This document shows, piece by piece, positions 37,159-38,591 of a stretch of 64,000 bases of DNA. The DNA is taken from contig NZ_RKLQ01000002.1 in assembly GCF_019599405.1 (NCBI RefSeq), forward strand, positions 372,001-436,000. The letters are read 5' to 3'. Position 1 is the first letter of the stretch. Every line of letters starts with the position of its first letter. The notes beneath the pieces are model-generated. The model was given only the letters and a program-made list of their open reading frames with translations. It searched no databases and was not told where the DNA came from. This DNA is from Haloarcula salinisoli. Lineage in GTDB: Archaea > Halobacteriota > Halobacteria > Halobacteriales > Haloarculaceae. Both the position numbers and the translations under genes were made by a program.

Positions 37159-37198
37159 ACTGCGCCGGTCGCCTCGGTCCCGGTCACACTGTTCACTC

Positions 37199-37457
37199 GC
37201 GATGGAACTCGATGGCCACACCGCTGCCACCTTTTTCTTCGTCGGGTATCCTCGCGAGCCTACGGCTCGCTGTGGGGAGAGCGTGGCGGCGTTGCCGCCA
37301 CGTCGTTCGGTTGCGGGCTACAGCCCGCAACCGGCTCTCTGCTCACGGGCGCAGAGCACCCGTTCGCATGGTCAGCGGGACCTCCGGTCCCGCACGACTC
37401 GAAAAACGTGGGCGAAAAAGCGGACTCTCGCTCCGTTCGAGTCCGTACCTGTCCCCC
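37199..37457. repeat. Hairpin-rich insert flanked by a duplicated thiolase 3' end
   Basis: Bases 37199-37230, read leftward, encode GGSGVAIEFHRE followed by a stop, a near copy of the thiolase end GQGAAIEFHRG. Between this fragment and the intact gene lie five hairpins, for example GTGGCGGC/GCCGCCAC, GGTTGCGGGCT/AGCCCGCAACC, GCGGGACC/GGTCCCGC and GGACTC/GAGTCC. Two A5 tracts separated by 8 bases (about 37398-37416) and an ACCTTTTT block (37229-37236) recall Family 2, but the rest differs. The arrangement suggests insertion of a structured element at the gene's 3' end. Confidence 0.6.
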
Positions 37458-38591
37458 TCAGCCCCGGTGGAACTCGATAGCAGCACCCTGTCCGAAGCCG
37501 ACGCATTCGGTCGCCAGTCCCAGCTCGGCGTCGCGGCGGTTCATCTCGTGGACGAGCGTCACCGGCAGCCGCGCGCCCGAGGCCCCGAGCGGGTGGCCGA
37601 TGGCGATGGCGCCGCCATTGACGTTGAACGTGTCGTCGGCAAAGCCCAGTTCCCGCTGGCAGTAGACGGTTTGGGCGGCGAAGGCCTCGTTGAGCTCCAC
37701 GAGGTCGTAGTCGTCGGTGGCCCGGCCGGTCCGCTCGGTGAGCTGGCGGACCGCCGGCACCGGGCCGATACCCATCACCGTCGGGTCGACGCCGACGACC
37801 TCGTGGGCGCCGATTTCGGCGAGCACGTCCAGGCCGTTCGCGTCGGCGAACTCGCGGCTCGTGACCACGAGTCCGGCCGCGCCGTCGGAGACCTGCGAGG
37901 CGTTGCCGGGCGTGACCGTCCCGTCGGATTTGAACACCGTCGGGAGTCCGCCGAGCGTCTCAAGCGAGGTGTCCCGCCGGATGCCCTCGTCCTCGGTGAC
38001 GGCCCCGTCGTCCGTTTCGATTGGCACCAGTTCGTCGTCGAAGCGACCCGAATCCGTCGCGTCGGCGGCCCGCTCGTGGCTCCGGAGTGCGTACTCGTCC
38101 TGGCGCTCCCTGCTGACCTCCTCTTCCTCGGCCACTTTCTCGGCGGTCATCCCCATCTGGAGTTCGCCGATGTTGTAGTGCTCCGCGAGGCGGGGGTGGA
38201 CGTTGTGGGTGTTCTCGCCCATCGGGACCCGCGACATCGACTCGACGCCGCCGGCGATGAGTACCTCGCGCTGGCCCGCCGCGATAGCGTCGGCGGCCCG
38301 CATCAGCGCCTCCGCCGACGAGGCACACCAGCGGTTGATGGTCGAACCGGGGACGCCCTCGCCCAGGTCCGACAGCAGCGAGATGACGCGGGCCACGTTG
38401 TTGCCCTGCTCGCCCCGCTGCTGGGCACAGCCCCACAGCAGGTCCTCGACCGCGTCGGGGTCGATACCCGTCCGAGAGAGCAGTTCGTTCACGAGCGGAA
38501 TCGAGAGGTCCTCGCTGCGGACACCCGCGAGGGCCCCGTCCTCCTTGCCTTGCGGGGTGCGGACGGCGCTGACGATAACCGGTGTTGGCAT
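37458..38591 (-). CDS. Thiolase (acetyl-CoA C-acyltransferase type)
   Basis: A 377-residue thiolase that joins or splits acyl-CoA at the 3-keto position. The nucleophile is Cys89 in TINRWCASSAEA; GGAIAIGHPLGASGAR provides the second catalytic His, and CVGFGQGAA the acid-base Cys. The complete set indicates an active degradative-type or biosynthetic thiolase. It is expected in fatty-acid or ketone-body metabolism; no partner gene is adjacent. Just past its stop codon lies a structured insert and then a near copy of its final dozen codons. Confidence 0.95.
   Translation of the reverse strand: MPTPVIVSAVRTPQGKEDGALAGVRSEDLSIPLVNELLSRTGIDPDAVEDLLWGCAQQRGEQGNNVARVISLLSDLGEGVPGSTINRWCASSAEALMRAADAIAAGQREVLIAGGVESMSRVPMGENTHNVHPRLAEHYNIGELQMGMTAEKVAEEEEVSRERQDEYALRSHERAADATDSGRFDDELVPIETDDGAVTEDEGIRRDTSLETLGGLPTVFKSDGTVTPGNASQVSDGAAGLVVTSREFADANGLDVLAEIGAHEVVGVDPTVMGIGPVPAVRQLTERTGRATDDYDLVELNEAFAAQTVYCQRELGFADDTFNVNGGAIAIGHPLGASGARLPVTLVHEMNRRDAELGLATECVGFGQGAAIEFHRG

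Follow-up and report, generated by a model that had tools for sequence, protein, structure and literature searches.

The e14 prophage of Escherichia coli is an integrative element that uses the 3′ end of the icd gene as its attB site and carries a replacement for that end. REP/BIME-type palindromic elements, which are hairpin-rich, terminator-like and found in arrays, occur at the 3′ ends of bacterial genes, and we know of no duplicated coding ends associated with them. In haloarchaeal genetics, insertion-duplication (‘pop-in’) recombination is used. Integrases of archaeal tRNA genes have been reviewed (PMC8371274), and gene conversion has been described in polyploid Haloferax (PMC11276520). 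MITEs, PATEs and SMRs have been described in haloarchaea (Haloquadratum); SMRs are reported to insert in palindromes of other mobile elements without target duplication, and the target duplication of MITEs is set by the helper transposase (PMC3119063).

A hairpin element downstream of a thiolase gene in Haloarcula salinisoli bears likenesses to, and differences from, these systems. As with integrative elements, the gene is rebuilt with an incoming end, its former end comes to lie on the far side, and tandem end-element-end-element-end arrangements occur; however, the hairpin element carries no integrase gene, measures only about 70-300 nt and targets many unrelated genes without a shared attachment sequence, with 20-230 nt duplicated. 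Because there is neither an integrase nor a common attachment site, we do not class it with integrative elements. Like MITEs, PATEs and SMRs, it is short, non-coding, dispersed and hairpin-rich, has imperfect inverted repeats and lacks a transposase of its own. Unlike SMRs, it has long flank repeats and sits at gene ends; unlike MITEs, it has no short duplication of fixed length, its repeats being about 20-230 nt and absent at convergent sites; and it differs from both MITEs and SMRs in that replacement gene ends occur with it. With REP/BIME elements it has in common hairpins, a position at gene 3′ ends, terminator-like features and arrays, but the sequence is unrelated. Pop-in recombination is similar in that a homologous fragment and its passenger enter by one crossover and the fragment is left on both sides, but it is a laboratory manipulation, and a natural, family-wide passenger is not described in the literature that we found. 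A search of the open-access literature likewise yielded no description of a gene-end-duplicating hairpin pattern. We regard the element as akin to dispersed hairpin repeats (MITE/SMR-like), with a real chance of its being a new kind. In several cases the newcomer end lies in the gene and the original persists as a leftover copy, so that the elements appear to exchange gene ends while spreading.

The window analyzed here is a stretch of 64,000 nucleotides of the H. salinisoli genome, in which the following features were annotated:

37458..38591, minus strand: intact thiolase gene, acetyl-CoA acyltransferase-like, 377 amino acids (open reading frame; Pfam PF00108 and PF02803; matches in 60/60 relatives)
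37458..37490, minus strand: the copy of the duplicated end that lies inside the gene (CAGGGTGCTGCTATCGAGTTCCACCGGGGCTGA), a direct repeat with 37193-37226
37227..37445 (37445 approximate), minus strand: hairpin element, a dispersed repeat made up of a terminator-like hairpin, a core with T5 tracts, additional hairpin modules and the right end GAAAAAGGTGG
37421..37445, minus strand: terminator-like hairpin CGGACTC/GAGTCCG before the first T5 tract (inverted-repeat search)
37400..37419, minus strand: conserved element core TTTTTCGCCCACGTTTTTCG, recurring in family and class genomes
37254..37393, minus strand: extra hairpin modules, with stems at 37254-37270, 37282-37302, 37308-37333, 37334-37364 and 37375-37393
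37227..37237, minus strand: element right end GAAAAAGGTGG, an imperfect inverted repeat of the core’s CCACGTTTTTC (17 exact copies in the genome)
37193..37226, minus strand: stub (CAGCGGTGTGGCCATCGAGTTCCATCGCGAGTGA), a thiolase 3′ end that was displaced or duplicated, abutting the element right end

The thiolase carries both Thiolase_N and Thiolase_C domains (Pfam), and its translated C-terminus reads GFGQGAAIEFHRG*. Downstream lie at least six perfect hairpins, and the minus-strand fold has a predicted energy of -153 kcal/mol (z = -5.4), which none of 100 shuffled sequences equaled in stability. Beyond them, a leftward frame at 37228-37193 reads GGSGVAIEFHRE* and is homologous to the final 10-11 thiolase codons. 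A preliminary description of the locus had recognized this order of intact thiolase, hairpin-rich insert and leftward stub, and the reading frame, the hairpins, the fold and the repeat bear it out. Its term ‘near-identical’ for the stub was too strong: the thiolase end and the stub form a direct repeat of 77-81% identity (77% at the DNA level over 30 nt), with 9 of the last 11 residues the same.

Taken alone, the repeat in this genome is barely above chance, with a score of 13 against a top score of 12 among 100 shuffles. It is nevertheless secure because relatives show the stub and the element together. Across 29 congener loci with usable downstream sequence, this genome counted in, the stub is present at 7/7 loci with the element and at 0/22 loci without it. 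A stub in relatives lacking the insert would have spoken against the preliminary description, and none of them has one. In four relatives with both element and stub (G008, G029, G001 and G022), the junction is AAAAAGGTGGCAGC|GG... or closely similar to it. At the thiolase gene of G004 the second end copy spans 29 codons with few differences, and in G017 the same gene is followed by a tandem array of 164-nt units, each consisting of the thiolase end and the element.

The element is dispersed well beyond this locus. The preliminary description had pointed to two A5 tracts 8 bases apart within the insert; these turned out to be the conserved core, which reads T5-CGCCCACG-T5 on the minus strand and occurs once in the window (expected 0.00) and 14 times exactly in the genome. 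It had also proposed looking for further copies of the insert, and these are plentiful: the genome holds 71 matches to the dispersed element, the core TTTTTCGCCCACGTTTTTCG is found in 65/146 genomes of the family, and its 18-nt form TTTTTCGCCCACGTTTTT in 72/391 Halobacteria genomes, mostly Haloarculaceae; a reversed-pattern control gave 0 matches. Named carriers are Haloarcula, Halomicrobium, Halorientalis, Salinibaculum, Halovenus, Halosimplex and Salinarchaeum. Both the core and the right end were recovered in other genomes, separated by 47-71 nt in most copies and by 296 nt at most; the window copy, with 182 nt between them, is longer because extra hairpin modules have been inserted. Within the element, CCACGTTTTTCG and CGAAAAAGGTGG form an imperfect inverted pair, and the outer left end is not sharp. 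Among 132 copies there was neither a longer coding form nor a larger autonomous element sharing these ends. An Rfam search of the element returned a below-threshold chance match only and no known structured RNA family. On plasmids we found no full copy, matches there spanning 14-44% of the query and chiefly covering the inner hairpin modules. A viral vehicle was rejected, since the sole core match on a viral contig (L432) was due to chance, other element features being absent around it.

For a comparison across the whole element family, the in-gene end is termed U and the stub beyond the element D, giving the layout body - U - element - D. With a threshold score of at least 18, a direct repeat across the element was detected in 65 of the 125 element copies in which both parts were recognizable; what is repeated is the adjoining gene's terminus. 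When non-orthologous flanks were swapped, such repeats appeared in 8/1455 combinations, and inverted orientation gave none. The repeats are about 20-230 nt long and mostly end near the stop codon of the target gene. Counted from the list of repeats, about 30 different genes are targeted, mostly at their 3′ ends; the duplicated-end pattern, which the preliminary description had proposed looking for at other gene ends, is thus present there, and a thiolase-specific attachment site is ruled out. Inspection of repeat starts and breakpoints across these roughly 30 unrelated genes showed no shared motif.

At the other boundary, D begins right after GGTGG, the sharp right end of the element. At many junctions GGTGG is followed by three target-matching bases, then one or a few extra bases (usually C when single) and then the target; at ileS this pattern with its extra base is conserved across several genera. 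At one gene, represented by loci L025 and L156, it is instead the start that is duplicated; this gene is oxidoreductase-like and lies on the other strand. Thus 5′ ends can also take part, and the process acts on DNA ends, not on translation or stop codons. Differences between U and D concentrate at codon position 3 (pooled, 61:53:205 over the three positions), as would be expected if D, like U, was a functional coding end until recently. The two are identical in some cases (for example L193, 86/86), and arrays of n elements with n+1 ends, perfect or near-perfect, occur in G017 (L178), G029 (L192) and, at ileS, G124 (L275).

Copies without a detectable repeat have a setting of their own. In 33/60 of them the right end lies near a convergent open reading frame, mostly 0-4 nt from its stop codon, and others adjoin tRNA-like sequences; examples at convergent stops or tRNA-like sequences are L209, L153, L161, L224 and L240. 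Judged from sequence, terminator anatomy is present, with a hairpin followed by a T tract at gene ends and in both directions between convergent genes. This arrangement suggests that an element between convergent genes may serve as a bidirectional terminator.

Which of the two end copies is new is clearest at ileS, where U is foreign while the body and D are native, the switch falling at the start of the repeat. In Haloarcula sebkhae (G003, L157) and in G005 (L212), windowed identity to native relatives is at baseline along the gene body, drops to 54-79% in U, in windows in which the natives reach 78-90% with one another, and returns to or near the native baseline along the length of D. The drop sets in no more than 30-60 nt into the repeat and leaves about 77 foreign in-gene codons at the end of the gene. 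Between these two genomes U is 99% identical, compared with about 94% for the bodies and 87% for the D copies; the end and the element together have therefore moved separately from the gene body. The foreign ileS C-terminus is also AT-richer (GC3 of 0.57 vs 0.87 in the body) and has spread between species of Haloarcula. A related foreign end without a stub is present in G016 and G027 (L246 and L247), and G016 retains a truncated element that looks like a footprint. The ileS breakpoint is the same in several genera. At ileS, U and D mostly resemble each other (88-100%), which also fits a duplication followed by gene conversion.

Other genes yield comparable records. For purM, G013 is 81% identical to its sister G020 in U and 89% in D, and D is the closer copy in 8/8 relatives listed; purM of G029 and a DHH gene of G090 point in the same direction more weakly. 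In spt5 of G016, D is closer than U to 9/10 relatives. The spt5 genes of G006, G018 and G008 show the opposite, an in-gene copy that is native-like and a D that has drifted; these stubs exclude any general rule equating stub and native end, and they lead us to conclude that old stubs decay. Separately, in H. salinisoli itself, downstream of an spt5/nusG-like gene (L424, C1 about 559,500), the inner segment bounded by inverted repeats is inverted in place and is followed by a decayed stub of the spt5 end.

In the preliminary description, the inner side of the insert carries a replacement end and the old end lies outside. That arrangement is best shown at ileS of G003 and G005, with purM of G013 and G029 and spt5 of G016 in agreement; the thiolase copies themselves are not confidently polarized because their repeat is too short. 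By analogy with ileS, the in-gene copy at 37458..37490 is a candidate replacement end. The thiolase stub is likely a displaced or duplicated end of the family-wide kind, with the inner copy the likely newcomer of an unpolarized pair.

On balance, we favor a mechanism in which a replacement gene end joined to the element enters at the start of the repeat through homologous recombination, with the old end left beyond the element. Since one element family serves about 30 termini without a breakpoint motif, recognition is most probably by gene-end homology, that is, by homologous recombination. The traveling unit would be the gene end together with the element. It might enter as a circle by a single crossover, a ‘natural pop-in’, or by allelic exchange with the donor’s D acting as the homology arm on the right; both routes would put the new end in the gene and leave the old one beyond the element. 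The element would be lost again if U and D recombined with each other, and end-element-end-element-end arrays could arise from several successive entries or from unequal exchange. We observed neither a circular intermediate nor an ongoing event, and homologous recombination alone accounts neither for the precise right end nor for the recruitment of new genes, and the sharp GGTGG boundary suggests that an element-specific nick or cut likely made the first junction. More tentatively, the elements could be integrase-free terminator cassettes, mobile units of gene end plus hairpin element that, from one species to another, swap the 3′ (or 5′) termini of conserved genes, using the gene end as a homology arm and leaving the native end as a fossil.

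If this holds, tiny non-coding elements move and exchange the ends of housekeeping genes such as ileS, purM, spt5, citrate synthase-like, gatA-like and thiolase genes between archaeal species without a recombinase of their own, and in effect they are a natural means of exchanging the C-termini of proteins along with terminators. Such exchange would account for stub reading frames downstream of genes, and because each stub keeps the previous native end, these loci would be dated, polarized records of gene-end exchange. It also becomes a testable question by what route a non-coding repeat that has a single sharp end can take up 20-230 nt of whichever gene adjoins it and make a second copy of them.

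The main rival to recombination at gene ends is transposition, in which an unknown transposase would nick the two strands 20-230 nt apart and insert the element, giving a long and variable target duplication whose copies are later made uniform by gene conversion and mixed by ordinary gene exchange. The sharp right end, the imperfect inverted repeats CCACGTTTTTCG/CGAAAAAGGTGG, the dispersed copies and the cases in which U equals D (such as L193) all suit it, as does the inverted spt5 segment of H. salinisoli, which shows that a segment bounded by inverted repeats behaves as a unit. Against this, transposition does not predict that D should be closer than U to relatives (ileS in G003 and G005, purM in G013 and G029, spt5 in G016), copies between convergent genes have no duplication, and such repeat lengths are, to our knowledge, far outside known transposase staggers; we judge it unlikely, though deserving of weight. 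Strong RNA-like hairpins, a duplication of variable length and a single conserved end would also be expected of a SINE-like retroposon spread by target-primed reverse transcription of a structured RNA. However, the reverse transcriptase domain PF00078 was found in 0/32 congener genomes, with control genomes positive as expected, and the foreign in-gene ends would be left unaccounted for, making this origin highly improbable.

A classical integrative element, with a tyrosine recombinase and a gene 3′ end as attB, that was later reduced to its joined ends would produce the same outcome, a gene end rebuilt from the element and an old end displaced. Yet about 30 unrelated genes are involved without a common breakpoint motif, core and right end nearly always lie 47-71 nt apart, and the copies include no longer form with coding sequence, so that we find this origin improbable. 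The preliminary suggestion of a site-specific recombinase is not supported on similar grounds, namely the lack of coding capacity and of a common breakpoint motif and the many unrelated genes. Plain tandem duplication of gene end plus terminator by slippage, with the last terminator lost, would explain the perfect-period arrays (164 nt in G017; ileS of G124), but not why the same element with the same sharp right end recurs at unrelated genes or why the last unit regularly lacks the element. As a general explanation it is ruled out, being unable to produce the foreign in-gene end at ileS, and we give it very little credence overall. Least probable of all, and scarcely credible, is an origin of the stub in a second thiolase gene that has otherwise been deleted. 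Paralogous thiolases are present in haloarchaea, but the stub begins directly after the element end, like those of other target genes, and the co-occurrence of stub and element (7/7 vs 0/22) rules this origin out; nor did anything that we found point to a second, intact thiolase ending in the stub.

The extra hairpin modules of the window copy are seen again at two other loci (L002 and L073). An inner module at 37360-37393 matches plasmid repeats outside the family and recurs at 17 places in a single replicon of Natrinema gelatinilyticum. Given these matches on haloarchaeal plasmids outside the family, the modules may have a history of their own.
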